Assembly: GCF_034134805.1 (NCBI RefSeq) | Contig: NZ_CP139419.1 | Coordinates: 248,001-312,000, forward strand | Reading direction: 5' to 3' | Source of the DNA: Streptococcus sp. S5 | GTDB taxonomy: Bacteria > Bacillota > Bacilli > Lactobacillales > Streptococcaceae | DNA length: 64,000 nt | Part shown: positions 3,007 to 58,729 of the stretch, piece by piece | Layout of the letters: each line of letters begins with the position of its first letter | Position numbering within the stretch: position 1 is the stretch's first letter | Translations under genes and position numbers: made by a program | The notes under the pieces: model-generated | Database searches by the model: none | What the model was told of the DNA's origin: nothing | What the model saw: only the letters and a program-made list of their open reading frames with translations

Positions 3007-4155
3007 ATGTTTCGTATTGAAGCAGAAAAATTGTTAGTTGGTTTTGTATTATCATTTATTATAGCTGTAGATATGTTAGGTACAACTATGTTAGGTAGAT
3101 TGATACCAACTATACCAAGTTCTATGTCTGTACTAGTTTCTCTATGTTTGCTAATCCGCTTTAGATACATTAAGAAATTCTCTATCAACTACCTGATTTT
3201 TGCACCTGTACTTCTAATTGTTGGCTTTTTAGTAGCTTTACAAATGAAGAATTATAGTTTCCTTGCCTATATGGTTCTGATAGTCTTTTTGTATGATATG
3301 GATATGGATTTTATATTAAAGGTTTATTGTGCGGTAGTTATTCCCTTTTTATTAGGAACAGTATTTTTATCTTTAATTCATATCATTCCTAACTTACAAT
3401 TTGTACAAATGAGAAATACAGGTATGGTTACAAGAAATTCCTTTGGTTTTATTTATCCAACGGATTTCGCGTCGCATTGTTTTTATTTATATGTTGCTCT
3501 GTCTTATTTAAACAGAAATCGTTTCTTGTTTACCCGTTCGGTTTTAGGGTTAGGTCTTGCTGCTTTTATTATTAAATTTTGTGATGCTCGTTTAAATGCA
3601 ATGTCAATCGTTATTTCGGTTGTGATATTTGCTTTTTTCTACTTTGCTAAAAATAAACATCGTATGATTTTTAGTATATTCCCAGCTTCAATTTTAGCAT
3701 CATCTGGAATTATGTATTACTTAACAAAGAATTTCACGTGGTCTAGTTCATTCTATGTTGCTATGAATAATTTGGTAAGTATGCGTTTGAAATTAGGCAA
3801 TGATGCTTTAAAGACTTATGCTGTACGTTTATTTGGTAATCCAGAAGCAAATTTTATTGGTTATGGTGGTAAAACTGAATCAGTTTTAAGTTATAACTAT
3901 GTTGATTCCTCATATATTCAAATGCTGTTTTATTATGGCAGTGTAGCAGTGGTTCTTCTTGTAATTCTATATTTTGTTAGATCTTGGGTTATCTATCGAC
4001 AGGGAAATTATCTTATTCTAACTTTACTTTCTTTGATCACATGGAATTGTATGATTGAAGCATTTTGGATTAGACCGTCATATAACATTTTTTTCTATAT
4101 TTTATTTGCGTCAGCTACAATAGGGGTTGAGCGTAAAAATAGGAGTAAAAAATGA
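3007..4155 (+). CDS. wzy: Wzy, capsule / receptor-polysaccharide polymerase
   Basis: A 382-residue, very hydrophobic protein with about ten predicted membrane segments and a larger extracytoplasmic loop around residues 240-310, the topology of Wzy oligosaccharide polymerases. Wzy links flipped undecaprenyl-pyrophosphate repeat units on the outer membrane face. Primary sequence is poorly conserved in this family, so the call rests on topology, length and position between transferases and the Wzx flippase. An AAAGGAG site overlaps the end of the preceding gene. The last four bases overlap wzx (ATGA), showing translational coupling. It is AT-rich; the composition changes abruptly in the next gene, which suggests that the cassette swaps as a serotype block ending here. 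Confidence 0.75.
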   Translation: MFRIEAEKLLVGFVLSFIIAVDMLGTTMLGRLIPTIPSSMSVLVSLCLLIRFRYIKKFSINYLIFAPVLLIVGFLVALQMKNYSFLAYMVLIVFLYDMDMDFILKVYCAVVIPFLLGTVFLSLIHIIPNLQFVQMRNTGMVTRNSFGFIYPTDFASHCFYLYVALSYLNRNRFLFTRSVLGLGLAAFIIKFCDARLNAMSIVISVVIFAFFYFAKNKHRMIFSIFPASILASSGIMYYLTKNFTWSSSFYVAMNNLVSMRLKLGNDALKTYAVRLFGNPEANFIGYGGKTESVLSYNYVDSSYIQMLFYYGSVAVVLLVILYFVRSWVIYRQGNYLILTLLSLITWNCMIEAFWIRPSYNIFFYILFASATIGVERKNRSKK

Positions 4156-5564
4156 AAGTTCTTAAAAATTACGCCTATAATCTCTCCTACCAGTTGCTGG
4201 TGATTATCTTGCCGATTATCACAACCCCTTATGTGACGCGGGTCTTTAGCTCGAATGACTTAGGAAGCTATGGTTATTTCAACTCTATCGTCACCTATTT
4301 TATTCTTTTGGCGACCTTGGGAGTGGCTAACTACGGAACCAAGGAGATTTCAGGACACCGCAAAGACATCCAAAAGAATTTCTGGGGGATTTATACCCTC
4401 CAATTGGGAGCGACCTTTGTGTCCATCCTGCTCTATGTCTTGCTGTGCTTGGCGCTTCCTTCCATGCAAAACCCTGTGGCCTATATCTTAGGGCTCAGTT
4501 TGGTTTCAAAGGGACTCGATATCTCCTGGCTCTTTCAGGGATTAGAGGATTTTCGTAAGATTACCGTTCGAAATATCACGGTCAAATTGGTTGGAGTCAT
4601 CTCCATCTTCTTGTTTGTCAAATCTGCCAATGATCTGTATCTCTATGTATTCTTGCTCACCATCTTTGAGCTCTTAGGTCAGCTCAGTATGTGGCTACCT
4701 GCTCGTGAGTTCATTGGGAAAGCCCATTTTGATTTGGCTTATGCACGGGTGCATTTAAAACCGGTCATTCTGCTCTTTTTACCGCAGATTGCCATTTCCC
4801 TCTATGTCACCTTGGATCGAACTATGCTGGGTGCTCTCGCCTCTACAAAGGATGTAGGGATTTATGACCAGGCCTTGAAATTGGTTAATATTTTGCTGAC
4901 CCTTGTGACGTCTTTAGGAAGTGTCATGCTTCCGCGCGTGGCGAGTCTCTTGGCTTCAGGAGATCACAAGGCGGTTAATAAGATGCACCAAATGTCCTTT
5001 TTGATCTATAATTTGGTCATCTTCCCAATCATCGCGGGTATGCTGATCGTCAACGATGACTTTGTTCGATTCTTCTTAGGGAAGGATTTCCAAGATGCTC
5101 GCTATGCCATCGCTATCATGATCTTCCGCATGTTCTTTATCGGATGGACCAATATCATGGGGATTCAAATTCTCATTCCACATGATAAGAACAAAGAATT
5201 TATGCTGTCAACTACGATTCCTGCTATCGTCAGTGTCGGGTTGAATGTGCTCTTCTTACCTCATTTTGGTTTTATTGGTGCAGCCATTGTATCCGTCTTA
5301 ACAGAATCCTTGGTATGGCTGATTCAACTGTACTATACCCGTCATTACCTCAAGGAAGTTCCAATTATCGGGTCTATGACAAAAATTATGTTTGCATCTG
5401 CTCTGATGTATGGCCTCTTGCTACTTGTAAAACCATTCCTACATTTCACCCCTACCCTGAACGTACTCGTGTATGCGGTGCTTGGTGGGATCATTTATCT
5501 GATCGCTATCCTATCTCTGAGAGTGGTAGATGTGAAAGAATTAAAACAAATATTTAAGAAATAA
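4152..5564 (+). CDS. wzx: Wzx, repeat-unit flippase
   Basis: A 470-residue polytopic protein of the MATE/PST superfamily with roughly twelve to fourteen membrane segments. The N-terminus (LPIITTPYVTRVF) is the usual signature of Wzx proteins in streptococcal capsule loci, and a YDQALKLVNI segment near residue 240 is also typical. It moves the lipid-linked repeat unit across the membrane for polymerisation by the adjacent Wzy. It starts inside the wzy stop region and ends overlapping the region of the glf ribosome site. Its GC content is visibly higher than the five genes before it and matches the genes after it, so it appears to belong to the conserved distal flank. Confidence 0.87.
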   Translation: MKVLKNYAYNLSYQLLVIILPIITTPYVTRVFSSNDLGSYGYFNSIVTYFILLATLGVANYGTKEISGHRKDIQKNFWGIYTLQLGATFVSILLYVLLCLALPSMQNPVAYILGLSLVSKGLDISWLFQGLEDFRKITVRNITVKLVGVISIFLFVKSANDLYLYVFLLTIFELLGQLSMWLPAREFIGKAHFDLAYARVHLKPVILLFLPQIAISLYVTLDRTMLGALASTKDVGIYDQALKLVNILLTLVTSLGSVMLPRVASLLASGDHKAVNKMHQMSFLIYNLVIFPIIAGMLIVNDDFVRFFLGKDFQDARYAIAIMIFRMFFIGWTNIMGIQILIPHDKNKEFMLSTTIPAIVSVGLNVLFLPHFGFIGAAIVSVLTESLVWLIQLYYTRHYLKEVPIIGSMTKIMFASALMYGLLLLVKPFLHFTPTLNVLVYAVLGGIIYLIAILSLRVVDVKELKQIFKK

Positions 5565-15432: not shown

Positions 15433-17667
15433 ATGAATAGAATAAAAGAATTATTTGAAAACCTGATCACTTTTTTTAGAAAGGATCATCCGCCCAAAGC
15501 GGTGGCAGAAGAAGTGCCAGACACGGAACTACCGGAAGAGACAGTAGAGCCGACCTATAGTCGCTCAGGCAAGCACAGAAGCAAGCTTCTCTCTCAGCAT
15601 CTTTTCCGTCGTTTTTGGCGCCGCTTCCATTTGACCAAGATTCTCCTGATCATTGGGCTAGGCTTTAGCCTCTTGACAGGGGGCTATCTCTTCTACCTCG
15701 CAAAGACGACCAACGTCAAAGATTTGCAGAATGCACTGAAGGCGACGACCATTATCTATGATAAGAATGGGGACCAGGCGGGAAGTTTGACCGGGCAAAA
15801 AGGAACCTATGTCGAACTCGATGCCATTAGTGAGAATCTGCAAAATGCCGTGGTCGCTACAGAGGACCGGAGCTTTTACAAGAATAGCGGGATCAACTAT
15901 GGTCGCTTCTTTTTAGCGATTTTGACCCTGGGTCGCTCAGGTGGTGGGTCGACCATCACCCAGCAGCTAGCCAAGAATGCTTACCTGTCTCAGGACCAGA
16001 CGGTAGAGCGCAAGGCCAAGGAATTCTTCCTAGCACTTGAAATCAATAAGAAATACAGTAAAAAAGAGATCCTCACCATGTACCTCAACAATGCCTATTT
16101 TGGAAATGGGGTTTGGGGTATTGAGGATGCTTCCAAGAAGTATTTTGGGGTTTCAGCCAGTCAATTAAGCCTGGATCAGTCTGCGGTACTCGCTGGTATG
16201 CTCAAGGGACCTGAAATCTATAACCCGCTCTATTCAGTAGAGAATGCGACCAATCGCCGCAATACGGTCCTCCAAAATATGGTGGCGGCTGGCTATATTG
16301 ACCAGAAAACGGCTGATCAGTCGGCTGCTGTCGATATCCATGGCCAGCTGGTCGATGCCTATGAAGGCAAGTCGGAGGATTACCGCTACCCATCCTATTT
16401 TGATGCGGTGATCAATGAAGCGGTCAATGAATACGGCCTGACCGAAGAAGACATTGTCAAAAATGGCTACCGGATCTACACCGAGCTGGATCAAAATTAC
16501 CAAGCAAGCATGCAGGTGATCTATGACAATACGGCCCTCTTCCCAGTAGCAGAAGACGGCACGCGCGCGGAATCTGGTAGTGTCGCCCTCGATCCTAAGA
16601 CCGGAGGGGTTCGGGCTCTCGTAGGGCGTGTCGGCAGTGATCAAAATCCAGGATTCCGTACCTACAACTACGCTACCCAGGCTGCTCGAAGTCCAGGATC
16701 AACCATCAAACCTTTGGTTGTCTATAGCCCAGCTGTTGCTGAAGGTTGGTCGACCAATAAGGAATTGGACAATAGTACCACCCAATATGGAAGCTATGAG
16801 GTCAATAACTACGCGGGAATCCAGTCGAGCCCAACGGTACCGATGTACCAGGCCCTGGCAGAGTCCCTTAACCTTCCAGCCGTAGCGACCGCTAATGATT
16901 TGGGTCTTGATACGGTCTTTGAGTACGGGAAAAAATTCGGGCTCAACATGGACAAGGTGGACAAGTCGCTTGCCGTTGCCTTGGGAGCTGGTGTGACAAC
17001 CAATCCGATGCAGATGGCCCAAGCCTATGGAACCTTTGCCAATGGTGGTGTCATGAATGATGCCCACCTCATTACCAAGATTGAAAATGCAAGCGGCCAA
17101 GTGGTCAAGAGCCACAGCCAGAAATCAACCCGAGTGCTCAGTGGTTCAACGACAGATAAGATGACCAATATGATGCTTGGTACCTTTAGTAATGGTACAG
17201 GGGTTAACGCTGCGCCTTATGGCTATACCATGGCAGGGAAAACCGGTACGACAGAGACCAGCTTTAACAAGGACCTCTCTGGAGACCAATGGGTGATCGG
17301 CTACACGCCAGATGTGGTCATCAGTCAGTGGCTTGGTTTCCCAACGACCGATGAAAATCACTACCTGACGGACAGTAGTGCTGGAACGGCATCCGAGATC
17401 TTCCGCAATGTTGCCAACAGTGTTCTGCCTTATACAGACGGTACCCAGTTTGACTCGGTGAAGAACTCTTATGCTGAAAACGGTATTGCACCAGTCGGAG
17501 AAGAAACGACAGAAACAGATAGCAAAGAAGACAAAGGTTTCTTTGAGGATGTCAAAGAAAAAGCGTCGAATATGGTCGATAATGCGAAGAAAGCAATCGA
17601 CGAGGCCGATATCCCAGGAAAAGCGAAAAACGCTTGGGATACCTTCAAAGGCTGGCTTGGTTTCTAA
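15433..17667 (+). CDS. pbp2A: Class A penicillin-binding protein 2a
   Basis: Bifunctional peptidoglycan glycosyltransferase/transpeptidase of 744 residues. A basic cytoplasmic tail is followed by one membrane segment (about 69-91). The GT51 domain shows the catalytic E144 in ATEDRSFYKN and the GGSTITQQLAKN block. The transpeptidase has the nucleophile S423 in SPGSTIKP, an SLN motif near residue 479, and KTGT at 603-606, all intact. The C-terminus is a charged 50-residue tail. It polymerises and crosslinks septal and peripheral wall. Gene order pbp2A, rpmG, secE, nusG matches pneumococcus, but here a zinc peptidase and a repeat element are inserted after pbp2A. The start rests on similarity to the pneumococcal N-terminus, since no Shine-Dalgarno is visible. 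Confidence 0.95.
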   Translation: MNRIKELFENLITFFRKDHPPKAVAEEVPDTELPEETVEPTYSRSGKHRSKLLSQHLFRRFWRRFHLTKILLIIGLGFSLLTGGYLFYLAKTTNVKDLQNALKATTIIYDKNGDQAGSLTGQKGTYVELDAISENLQNAVVATEDRSFYKNSGINYGRFFLAILTLGRSGGGSTITQQLAKNAYLSQDQTVERKAKEFFLALEINKKYSKKEILTMYLNNAYFGNGVWGIEDASKKYFGVSASQLSLDQSAVLAGMLKGPEIYNPLYSVENATNRRNTVLQNMVAAGYIDQKTADQSAAVDIHGQLVDAYEGKSEDYRYPSYFDAVINEAVNEYGLTEEDIVKNGYRIYTELDQNYQASMQVIYDNTALFPVAEDGTRAESGSVALDPKTGGVRALVGRVGSDQNPGFRTYNYATQAARSPGSTIKPLVVYSPAVAEGWSTNKELDNSTTQYGSYEVNNYAGIQSSPTVPMYQALAESLNLPAVATANDLGLDTVFEYGKKFGLNMDKVDKSLAVALGAGVTTNPMQMAQAYGTFANGGVMNDAHLITKIENASGQVVKSHSQKSTRVLSGSTTDKMTNMMLGTFSNGTGVNAAPYGYTMAGKTGTTETSFNKDLSGDQWVIGYTPDVVISQWLGFPTTDENHYLTDSSAGTASEIFRNVANSVLPYTDGTQFDSVKNSYAENGIAPVGEETTETDSKEDKGFFEDVKEKASNMVDNAKKAIDEADIPGKAKNAWDTFKGWLGF

Positions 17668-17670
17668 TCA

Positions 17671-17705
17671 AAAAACGATTCAGAAGAATTTCTGAATCGT
17701 TTTTT
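17671..17705 (+). terminator. pbp2A terminator
   Basis: Long inverted repeat AAAAACGATTCAGA / TCTGAATCGTTTTT directly after the stop. The core ATTCAGAAG..TTCTGAAT is repeated, with one change, on the far side of the adjacent structured element (17968-17988). Confidence 0.9.
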
Positions 17706-17715
17706 GCAGATTGAA

Positions 17716-17950
17716 GACAAAGTCTTCTTAGAAACTTTCCTTAAGTGAGTACGGACGTCAGCGAACTTCGAAGAAGTTCCATGACTTAGTTTTGAGCCTG
17801 AGGTCTCAAAACTCCCGAGTGCTAGAAACAACAGTGTTTCTGGCACTTTTCTCACGGCGGAAAGTTTCTGTTGAAATGATCCTAATAGTATTAATTATTT
17901 TAATTTTTCAACGTTACTTAGATTGTTTTATGTAAAATGCAATTTGTCTA
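17716..17950 (+). repeat. Family-2 structured TIR element, copy 1
   Basis: About 235 bp bounded by AGACAAA and TTTGTCT. Inner inverted repeats AAACTTTCC...GTGAG and CTCAC...GGAAAGTTT enclose three hairpins: GAACTTC/GAAGTTC, AGTTTTGAG/CTCAAAACT, and AGTGCTAGAAACA/TGTTTCTGGCACT. A small hairpin GAAGAC-AAA-GTCTTC sits at the left end and an AT-rich tail of about 75 bases at the right. It has no coding capacity. Other copies are at 23500-23892 and, inverted, 44812-45053. Confidence 0.85.
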
Positions 17951-17954
17951 TATT

Positions 17955-17990
17955 CTAAAAAGATCCATTCAGAAGGATTTCTGAATAGAC
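17955..17990 (-). terminator. Terminator of the zinc metallopeptidase gene
   Basis: On the minus strand ATTCAGAAATCC pairs with the TTCTGAAT arm and is followed by GGATCTTTTT, just after the stop of the leftward peptidase gene. Confidence 0.75.
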
Positions 17991-17996
17991 CTTTGT

Positions 17997-23464: not shown

Positions 23465-23493
23465 AAGAGGTTTCGAAGGGAACCTCTTTTTTT
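23465..23493 (+). terminator. tsf terminator
   Basis: AAGAGGTT / AACCTCTT with an eight-base loop and T run. Part of its right arm and tail (CCTCTTTTTTTGTAA) recurs at about 23913, beyond the adjacent structured element. Confidence 0.88.
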
Positions 23494-23499
23494 GTAAGA

Positions 23500-23892
23500 T
23501 AAATTCATCTAAATAACTTTCCTTAGGTGAGTACGGACGTCAGCGAACTTCGAAGAAGTTCCATGACTAATTAAGATACAAAGGGCGTCTGCGGATAAAG
23601 TCAAAATAGGAAGTTTAACGAAGAATCTTTAGATTCTAGGAAAACTTATCTTTTTGACACAATCCGCCGCCCGTGTTCAATTAGTTTTGGACCCATTCGC
23701 TTTTCAAATTTTAAGCTCATGCTAAAACAGTTCCCCGAACTGTTTTACTTCCAAAACTCCCGAGTGCTAGAAACATGATTGTTTCTAGCACTTTTCTCAC
23801 GGCGGAAAGTTTTAGTAGATGACTGAGTAATTCTAATAAATAAATTTTTTTGTTTTATAGAATTTATTAGATTTGTAAAAAACAGTTTGTCT
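23500..23892 (+). repeat. Family-2 structured TIR element, copy 2, with an extra hairpin arm
   Basis: It shares the AACTTTCC...GTGAG and CTCACGGCGGAAAGTTT frame, the GAACTTC/GAAGTTC hairpin and the AGTGCTAGAAACA/TGTTTCTAGCACT hairpin with copy 1. The left end has lost its small hairpin. Between the GAAGTTC arm and the AGTTTTGG/CCAAAACT stem it carries about 120 extra bases that fold on themselves (GGGCG..GCGGAT with ATCCGCCGCCC; GAATCT/AGATTC at the tip). The loop of the AGTTTTGG stem also holds an AAAACAGTTC/GAACTGTTTT hairpin. No coding capacity was seen. Confidence 0.82.
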
Positions 23893-23928
23893 ATACTCTT
23901 TGAAGAACGGAAACCTCTTTTTTGTAAA

Positions 23929-35968: not shown

Positions 35969-35984
35969 CTCCTTATTCGCATAA

Positions 35985-36164
35985 GAGGCTGGGACAAAAG
36001 TCCTAGCCTCTCAATTATTTTTGGATTGTCGAGCAAGACGCAGTGGTTGAGTGGGCTCTACTACGCTGATTTCATCAGCTTTTACAGCCCTACTCAACTG
36101 TGCGGAGGTGGGACGACGAAATCGAATTCTAACGAATTACCGATTTCTGTCCCACTCTCTTTTG
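35985..36164 (+). repeat. Family-1 composite hairpin repeat, subfamily B, copy 1
   Basis: Left hairpin GAGGCTGGGAC / GTCCTAGCCTC, central GTTGAGTGGGCT / AGCCCTACTCAAC, right GTGGGAC..AAATCG / CGATTT..GTCCCAC ending in T-rich sequence. It lies 17 bases after the fucosidase stop and probably terminates that transcript. It differs from the copy at 58388 at only a few positions. Confidence 0.88.
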
Positions 36165-36233
36165 TTTTTCTCCTTTCCTTAAGAGATTCCTATTTCCATA
36201 GAGTCTTTGCTTTATTTACAGCCGTAAAAATTG

Positions 36234-40124: not shown

Positions 40125-40307
40125 AAGAGAGTGGGACAGAAATCGGTAATTCGTTAGAATTCGATTTCGTCGTCCCACCTCCGCACAGTTGAGTAGGGCT
40201 GTAAAAGCTGATGAAGTCAGCGTAGTAGAGCCCACTCAACCACTGCGTCTTGCTCGACAATCCAAAAATAATTGAGAGGCTAGGACTTTTGTTCCAGCCT
40301 CTTTTTT
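40125..40307 (-). repeat. Family-1 composite hairpin repeat, subfamily B, copy 2 (inverted)
   Basis: Same three-hairpin structure as the copy at 35985 but on the opposite strand, beginning five bases after the DUF4430 stop. Here the rightward terminator is formed by GAGGCTAGGAC / GTTCCAGCCTC plus six T. Confidence 0.88.
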
Positions 40308-44777: not shown

Positions 44778-44811
44778 AAATAGGCCCCCGTGTGAGATTC
44801 TATTAGAATGT

Positions 44812-45053
44812 AGACAAATTGTTTTTTTATATTAAGTAATCTAGAAGATACTAAAAAATTAAACTGATATATACTATAGAGCTCGTTCACAAACACACTG
44901 AAACTTTCCGCCGTGAGAAAAGTGCCTGAAACACGATTGTTTCAGGCACTCGGGAGTTTTGAGACCTTAGGCTCAAAACTAAGTCATGGAACTTCTTCGA
45001 AGTTCGCTGACGTCCGTACTCACCTAAGGAAAGTTTCTAAGATGACTTTGTCA
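44812..45053 (-). repeat. Family-2 structured TIR element, copy 3 (inverted)
   Basis: Bounded by AGACAAA and TTTGTCA. It contains AAACTTTCC...GTGAG paired with CTCAC...GGAAAGTTT, hairpins AGTGCCTGAAACA/TGTTTCAGGCACT, AGTTTTGAG/CTCAAAACT and GAACTTC/GAAGTTC, and a terminal ATGAC-TTT-GTCAT hairpin. Relative to copies 1 and 2 the stem changes are compensatory. It lies immediately beside a family-1 repeat. Confidence 0.85.
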
Positions 45054-45066
45054 TTAATCTAAAACA

Positions 45067-45249
45067 GAGGCTGGGACAAAAGTCCTAGCCTCTCAATTAT
45101 TTTTGGATTGTCGAGCAAGACGCAGTGGTTGAGTGGGCTCTACTACGCTAATTTCATCAGCTTTTACAGCCCTACTCAACTGTGCGGAGGTGGGACGACG
45201 AAATCGAATTCTAACGAATTACCGATTTCTGTCCCACTCTCGCTTTTTG
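45067..45249 (+). repeat. Family-1 composite hairpin repeat, subfamily B, copy 3
   Basis: Nearly identical to the copy at 35985. It lies between the rightward DUF1275 gene and leftward dusB, a position where a bidirectional terminator would serve both. Confidence 0.88.
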
Positions 45250-45254
45250 TGTTT

Positions 45255-46232
45255 CTATGCTTTTAATTGTAAGAGTTCTTCAATCTCTGCTAGGGTGCTA
45301 GCTTGCGAGATGGCGCCACGGAGTTTGGCTGCGCCTGAGGTACCACGGAGGTAGTGAGGGGCGAGGCCACGGAATTCACGAACGGCAATGTGCTCACCTT
45401 TGAGATCGATCAAGCGTTTCAAGTGTTCGTAAGCGATCTTCATCTTGTCTTCAAAAGTCAAATCAGGCAGGATTTCTCCTGTTTCAAAGTAGTGGTTGAT
45501 TTGGTTGAAGAGATAAGGATTCCCCATAGCAGCGCGACCAATCATGACCGCATCAGCACCGACTTCTTCGATCCGTTGTTTGGCGTCTTGAACCGTACGG
45601 ATATCTCCATTTGCGATGAAAGGAATCTTGGTCAGGGCCTGTGCAACCTTGTGAAGGGTCTCAAGGTCCGCATGACCCGTATACATTTGCTCCCGAGTCC
45701 GTCCATGCATGGCAAGGGCAGAGACACCTGCAGCTTCAGCAGCGAGCGCATTCTCAACTGCTAGGGAAGGATCCGACCAACCCGTCCGCATTTTAACAGT
45801 GAGGGGGATATCAAGGACAGATTGAACCTTATTGATGATGGAGTAGATCTTGTCTGGATCCTTGAGCCACATCGCACCAGCCTCGTTCTTGACGATTTTA
45901 TTCACCGGGCAACCCATGTTGATATCAACGATATCGGTCTTGGTATTTTCTTGGATAAATTCAGCTGCGCGTGCGAGGCTATCTTCGTCACTTCCAAAGA
46001 GTTGGATCGATACAGGATTTTCTCCTTCATCGATATGGAGCATGTGAAGCGTCTTTTCATTGTTGTACTGGATTCCCTTGTCAGAGACCATTTCCATCAC
46101 AACGAGCCCTGCCCCCAGTTCTTTGGCAATGGTCCGGAAAGCTGAGTTGGTCACTCCGGCCATTGGGGCTAGGACGGTACGGTTAGGGATTTCGACATCC
46201 CCGATCATAAATGGCGTATTAAGATTTGTCAC
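45255..46232 (-). CDS. dusB: tRNA-dihydrouridine synthase (DusB-type)
   Basis: A 325-residue flavoprotein that reduces uridine to dihydrouridine in the tRNA D-loop. The FMN-binding N-terminus reads [17 protein letters not shown], and the catalytic C108 is in [33 protein letters not shown] and [12 protein letters not shown] follow, and a helical RNA-binding domain ends the protein. The start is GTG, with GGAGG nine bases before it and the family N-terminus ([10 protein letters not shown]). An ATG 84 bases upstream would lie deep inside hslO. It overlaps the end of hslO by 14 bases, so the two are coupled. Confidence 0.92.
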
Positions 46233-58384: not shown

Positions 58385-58387
58385 GAA

Positions 58388-58569
58388 GAGGCTAGGACAA
58401 AAGTCCTAGCCTCTTAATTGTTTTTGGATTGTCGAGCAAGACGCAGTGGTTGAGTGGGCTCTACTACGCTGATTTCATCAGCTTTTACAGCCCTACTCAA
58501 CTGTGCGGAGGTGGGACGACGAAATCGAATTCTAACGAATTACCGATTTCTGTCCCACTCTCTTTTTTT
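58388..58569 (+). repeat. Family-1 composite hairpin repeat, subfamily B, copy 4
   Basis: Almost identical to the copies at 35985 and 45067. The left stem is a perfect GAGGCTAGGAC / GTCCTAGCCTC, whereas others have a G-T pair there. It ends the fthC-rhomboid unit. Confidence 0.88.
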
Positions 58570-58729
58570 CCTAAAAAATGTAGCAAAATCGTAAACTAAC
58601 AGAAAATTGTTTGAAATGCAAAGGATTGTATATATTTATTATAATATATTTGTAGAGGCTAAATGAGCCTTCTATTGCTAGGTCCATAGAGAAGGTAATC
58701 ATGGGTAAAAAAGTATAAAAATGCAAAAT

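Follow-up and report, generated by a model that had tools for sequence, protein, structure and literature searches.

The window, the whole 64,000-nucleotide stretch of the Streptococcus sp. S5 chromosome that was analysed, contains three copies of a dispersed element in which terminal repeats enclose a structured core. The chromosome (2.11 Mb) carries about 41 copies, and 42 places in it are related to copy 1. For reasons given below we consider the element to be very probably a MITE, and its features are listed under that name.

17708..17956, + strand: MITE copy 1, complete, 249 bp; ends AGATTGAAGACAAA / TTTGTCTATATTCT
17708..17721, + strand: left terminal repeat of copy 1; the left end of the IS1182-family IS in other streptococci has the same sequence
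17729..17869, + strand: structured core of copy 1, with outer stem P1, P1b and hairpins P2/P2b, P3 and P4
17943..17956, + strand: right terminal repeat (inverted) of copy 1, TTTGTCTATATTCT
17670..17705, + strand: terminator hairpin left of copy 1, AAAAAACGATTCAGAAGAATTTCTGAATCGTTTTTT, one side of the target duplication
17957..17995, + strand: terminator hairpin right of copy 1, duplicated and partly diverged, ATTCAGAAGGATTTCTGAAT
23490..23899, + strand: MITE copy 2 with an extra domain, 410 bp; ends TTTTGTAAGATAAA / TTTGTCTATACTCT
23568..23746, + strand: extra structured domain of copy 2, replacing the tip of P3 (the middle hairpin); limits approximate, from sequence comparison
44805..45060, - strand: MITE copy 3, 256 bp; R1 score 163.6 bits; ends AGATTAATGACAAA / TTTGTCTACATTCT
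45066..45094, - strand: terminator-like hairpin beside copy 3, also the end of a neighbouring D2 repeat

The sequence-only reading had described three copies that share terminal AGACAAA/TTTGTCT repeats and an inner frame around hairpins whose arms change together. The copies, the frame, the hairpins and the paired changes are all present in the window sequence. The terminal repeats occur in all three copies but have degenerated to AGATAAA in copy 2 and to TGACAAA in copy 3, and an element delimited by them is slightly wider than first proposed. The long hairpin is paired as described, except for a single G-T pair in copy 1 (CTAG/CTGG).

The R1 cmsearch places the core of copy 1 at 17729-17869 on the plus strand (158.4 bits; DNA fold z = -7.8) and that of copy 3 at 44899-45039 on the minus strand. 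The match to copy 2 is split (23511-23650 and 23694-23814) because of the extra domain of ~180 bp. A large domain of this kind, GGGCGTCTGCGGATAAAGTC...GACACAATCCGC.GCCC, stands in place of the P3 tip in three copies of the same genome (window 23568-23746, L040 and L152), which suggests modular exchange, as judged by sequence comparison. In several species another module, GGTGAAATTATCCAGTGGATGATTTCAG, takes the place of the P2 hairpin (L030, L084 near 404, L087 and L115) and is apparently exchanged as a unit; a similar piece is found in L161 (near 4144). No ORF of 80 aa or more runs across copy 1 or copy 2. With a length of ~250 bp and no transposase gene, the element has the proportions of a MITE.

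The left hairpin of copy 1 lies just downstream of an ORF that ends at 17667, and its match to the right flank outscores all 1482 cross-pairings. The hairpin beside copy 3 has no second copy across the element, and the flank score of this copy is not above the null. It adjoins another dispersed repeat of ~180-200 bp, present in the window at 35984-36180, 40127-40307, 45066-45262 and 58387-58583 with 92-99% identity; the copy at 45066-45262 ends in this terminator-like hairpin (GAGGCTAGGACTTTTGTCCCAGCCTC).

The element ends lead to a family of transposons. Of 147 genomes, 51 contain the 16-base end pattern AGAWTGWAGACAAAGT, while the reversed control gave 2 hits; many of the pattern sites lie ~1.05 kb from a PF13751 transposase domain. 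These ISs are complete, measure 1533-1550 bp and carry the same repeat at both ends. The transposase of one of them (L131, 482 aa) matches the NCBIfam model NF033551 (IS1182) with 443.9 bits. The MITE and the IS of other streptococci have 14-bp terminal repeats in common, and the structured core is missing from the IS. No PF13751 domain was found in the genome of the window, and mobility there may therefore be extinct. A short relic of two inverted IS ends (AGATTGAAG...CTTCAATCT) within ~60 bp is present in this genome (L153, ~2024134), between terminator-like hairpins.

Perfect duplications of 20-38 bp border seven of the nine IS copies examined, each of them a palindromic terminator hairpin (e.g. 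AAACGGATAACGCACCAAATATGGTGCGTTATCCGTTT), and one further copy has a duplication with a single mismatch. The MITE copies of the window genome likewise have the same terminator hairpin on both sides, with a different hairpin at each locus. When flanks of different copies are paired to give the null, 17 of 39 reach p<=0.004 and 19 of 39 p<0.05. Across the genus, 55 of the 105 copies with both ends lie above 99% of the null; in 12 the duplication is perfect over 16 nt or more. In about half of the MITE copies no flank duplication is detectable. Since IS and MITE both sit between duplicated hairpins, both insert into a terminator stem-loop, and what is duplicated is the entire palindrome. Terminal inverted repeats and type of target duplication are thus those of the autonomous IS, as expected of a MITE of IS1182. 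The sequence-only reading had set the element apart from passive MITE debris. It was right that this is a dispersed, structured family with genuine compensatory changes and not mere decayed remnants; the anatomy is that of a MITE nonetheless, and the contrast fails on the repeats held in common with IS1182-family ISs and on the target duplications.

With genes called as longest ORFs, a simple rule, the gene context agrees with terminators being the target. In the window genome the neighbouring genes are convergent for 20 copies and divergent for none; in other genomes the numbers are 44 and 4 of 94 copies. An orientation bias in the window genome (15-16 '++' against 4 '--') had suggested coupling to transcription, but across the genus the counts are 22 and 24 and the idea was dropped.

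The element is widespread in Streptococcus, where 113 of 197 sampled genomes match at E<=0.001 in the search that the earlier reading had proposed, with copy numbers from few to more than 40 across species. Its core has a GC content of 45%. Folding either strand as DNA gives z = -7.0 to -8.3 relative to dinucleotide shuffles, and together with the copy number and the spread through the genus this rules out chance. Covariation was assessed in an alignment of 130 distinct cores and 141 columns. The reference for each column pair was a set of 150 alignments simulated along the tree at an equal number of changes per column, a procedure that approximates R-scape but is not R-scape itself. Ten base pairs covary significantly (E<0.05), all within predicted helices, so the covariation expected by the sequence-only reading is borne out. 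In a smaller alignment of 20 sequences, 95% of cells are paired and both sides have changed in 30 of 46 pairs. These values were reached in none of 500 shuffles, and the signal is lost when the partner is slid by one column. The covariation of the element is real.

Across the genus, the unpaired parts of the core show strong conservation, equal to that of the stems, and are recognisable in another Lactobacillales family; the motifs are GGACG..AGCGA, TTCCAT..CTAA and GAGCC..GGTCTC. Two further ideas about the core were discarded. For a pseudoknot, CCTTAGG close to the 5' side would pair with CCTAAGG in the P3 loop; the consensus allows this pairing, which variants do not keep consistently. The idea of a single-strand origin from a plasmid or phage came from a TAGCGA motif, but the core has no match in records of plasmids or phages, and one position of the motif is paired and varies. 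In another streptococcus (L090, ~4000-4250) a copy of the element appears to be interrupted by a repeat (TATACTCAATGAAAATCAAAGAGC...TTCGAAGAGTA), which we take to be BOX-like.

Compensatory changes can be used to ask which strand is under selection. When the helix of an RNA made from one strand is selected, single changes to G-U are tolerated and single changes to A-C are not. The RNase P control, 30 streptococci aligned on the Rfam structure, behaves in this way, with 13.2% G-U and 0.0% A-C (43 against 0 events, p 2e-13). The helices of the element contain 1.0% G-U and 1.5% A-C (42 against 54 events, p 0.26), together with 123 double Watson-Crick changes, and with P1 left out the events number 26 and 28. 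Covariation is thus present and the excess of G-U over A-C is absent. Unlike in RNase P, one-strand RNA selection is therefore not what keeps the pairing. The pairing is kept regardless of strand, which fits better with folding at the DNA level or with correction by template switching. The earlier proposal that the element would be an RNA is not supported by this comparison, as its changes lead from one Watson-Crick pair to another.

The same symmetry is found outside the genus. In the genome G314, from another Lactobacillales family, a divergent core that shares the layout and the P3 loop is matched 47 times (L274-L293 and L304-L323); some of the matches are in tandem, and the element ends are different. 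The 35 aligned sequences hold 24 G-U (1.9%) and 22 A-C (1.8%) cells, so the G314 core repeats the strand symmetry of the Streptococcus element. G314 also carries 12 intact IS1182-type copies. Their terminal repeats are unlike those of its elements, and no partner for the core is claimed there.

The double Watson-Crick changes without G-U intermediates would also be expected if the core were neutral cargo of a mobile element, its stems kept perfect solely by template switching and not by selection on the fold. The flanking terminators may contain traces of such a process. In the flanks of L080, L085 and L068, one duplicated terminator has a loop that is the reverse complement of the loop in the other. 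Among hand-picked terminator pairs, 7 of 14 match clearly better with one copy inverted, a hint of template switching at hairpins, the mechanism described in PMC8794818. A purely mutational process acting on stems does not predict unpaired motifs as conserved as the stems, and we regard wholly neutral cargo as unlikely.

The element matches a family in Rfam. In a permissive scan, the minus strand of copy 1 matches RF02616 (SSRC8_2) over its full length (1-281) with 60.6 bits and E 1.4e-16, below the gathering cut-off of 72 bits. Four other copies of the same genome exceed the cut-off (93.5, 79.1, 78.9 and 75.5 bits), which is reached in 20 of 147 genomes. The sequence-only reading knew of no name for the element and had counted a match to an Rfam family against itself; RF02616 is such a match, with copy 1 itself below the cut-off. 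Other Rfam hits (rox1, mir-59 and so on) are chance matches to the AT-rich terminator hairpin. SSRC8 is an S. pyogenes sRNA that was detected on Northern blots, with circular RACE to map it (PMC3675131). At its strongest match (genome L209, 340.8 bits), both ends of the RNA carry the ends of the element and one terminator hairpin occurs twice (AATACTGAAATTCAGTATTT and AAGACTGAAGCTCAGTATG); the two target duplications therefore mark the limits of the Rfam sequence, and S. pyogenes SSRC8 is a copy of the element that is transcribed. RF02616 resembles the element over the full length including the element ends. Rfam files it as an sRNA, whereas the present analysis makes it a member of a mobile family flanked by terminators, with a model that includes the target duplication.

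At least one copy is thus transcribed, and co-option as an sRNA may have occurred. That the family as a whole consists of functional trans-acting sRNAs like SSRC8, multicopy by chance and selected for an RNA fold, would account for the RF02616 match, the Northern and RACE detection (PMC3675131), the strong covariation and the conserved unpaired motifs. It is improbable all the same, since neither strand has the G-U excess over A-C seen in RNase P of the genus, the Rfam consensus takes in transposon ends and the flanking terminator duplication, and copy number varies from few to more than 40 between species. Slightly less probable still is transcription of both strands with both RNAs under selection, so that G-U is forbidden on either. 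Such an arrangement would yield the observed symmetry, and the flanking terminators do face both ways, with many copies between convergent genes. It requires two functional RNAs in one frame, which is less economical, draws its argument from the symmetry only, and leaves the terminal repeats and target duplications unexplained.

Our preferred explanation, which we hold to be very probable, is a non-autonomous MITE of ~250 bp that is mobilised in trans by an IS1182-family transposase, duplicates terminators, and has a core that would act as folded DNA, be corrected by template switching, or both. In this mechanism the transposase would join the element to the hairpin base on both strands, with a stagger equal to the length of the hairpin. 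The host gene would keep its own terminator and the second terminator would close the far side. With both terminators retained, insertion would be nearly harmless, which would account for the ~40 copies and for their near absence between divergent genes. Copying of the whole terminator hairpin would thus be a neat way of inserting without harm, as the upstream gene keeps its terminator. The core may extrude as a cruciform, acting on both strands, and its stems may be corrected by template switching during replication. Transposition by itself does not account for the conserved unpaired motifs, since the IS does without them. Some factor presumably reads the sequence or fold of the core, which may serve mobility or, in some copies, a host function. 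A more specific version is possible but tentative: the core would be a conserved DNA-acting module, cruciform on both strands, that serves mobility, with a transposase that duplicates terminators, and sRNA catalogues and covariation screens would have taken it for RNA. Such a module could be a transposase signal or play a role at the replication fork, and it would occur in Streptococcus and, with other ends, in another family.

If the MITE reading is correct, an accepted sRNA family, RF02616, becomes a mobile element plus its target duplication, and 'SSRC8' annotations should be read with care. The element also illustrates clearly that covariation can be significant without implying RNA function. 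The symmetry of G-U and A-C between strands, calibrated on RNase P, offers a cheap additional test for covariation screens.

Among known repeats of S. pneumoniae, BOX, RUP and SPRITE occupy the same niche as small, MITE-like intergenic repeats enriched between convergent genes (PMC3049150), but membership of the element in any of them is hardly credible, as its ends, sequence, fold and 45% GC core are different and its host range is wider. SPRITE ends in AAAA/TTTT, is 28% GC and shows no target duplication that could be demonstrated (PMC3049150); the ends of the element are AGATTGAAGACAAA / TTTGTCTACATTCT. The hairpins maintained by template switching in PMC8794818 show similar compensatory changes without G-U intermediates and reverse-complement copying at hairpins, and differ in belonging to RNA genes and not to a mobile element.

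Also among the nearest known systems are the streptococcal IS1182-family ISs, which have terminal repeats and terminator target in common with the MITE; the latter lacks the transposase gene and has a structured core that is absent from the IS. Our literature search found no paper that joins IS1182, MITE and Streptococcus in the sense proposed here. In staphylococci, IS1272 and TnSha1 of the IS1182 family insert into stem-loops irrespective of sequence, and many of these targets are terminators (PMC4923244, PMC5678879); the streptococcal element targets stem-loops and terminators in a similar way. While IS1272 replaces or deletes the stem-loop without target duplication, the hairpin is duplicated as a whole in the flanks of both the streptococcal IS and the MITE, and replacement of an inverted repeat as in IS1272 was discarded. 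Insertion that copies a terminator thus departs from the published, hairpin-replacing mechanism of IS1272 within the same IS family.
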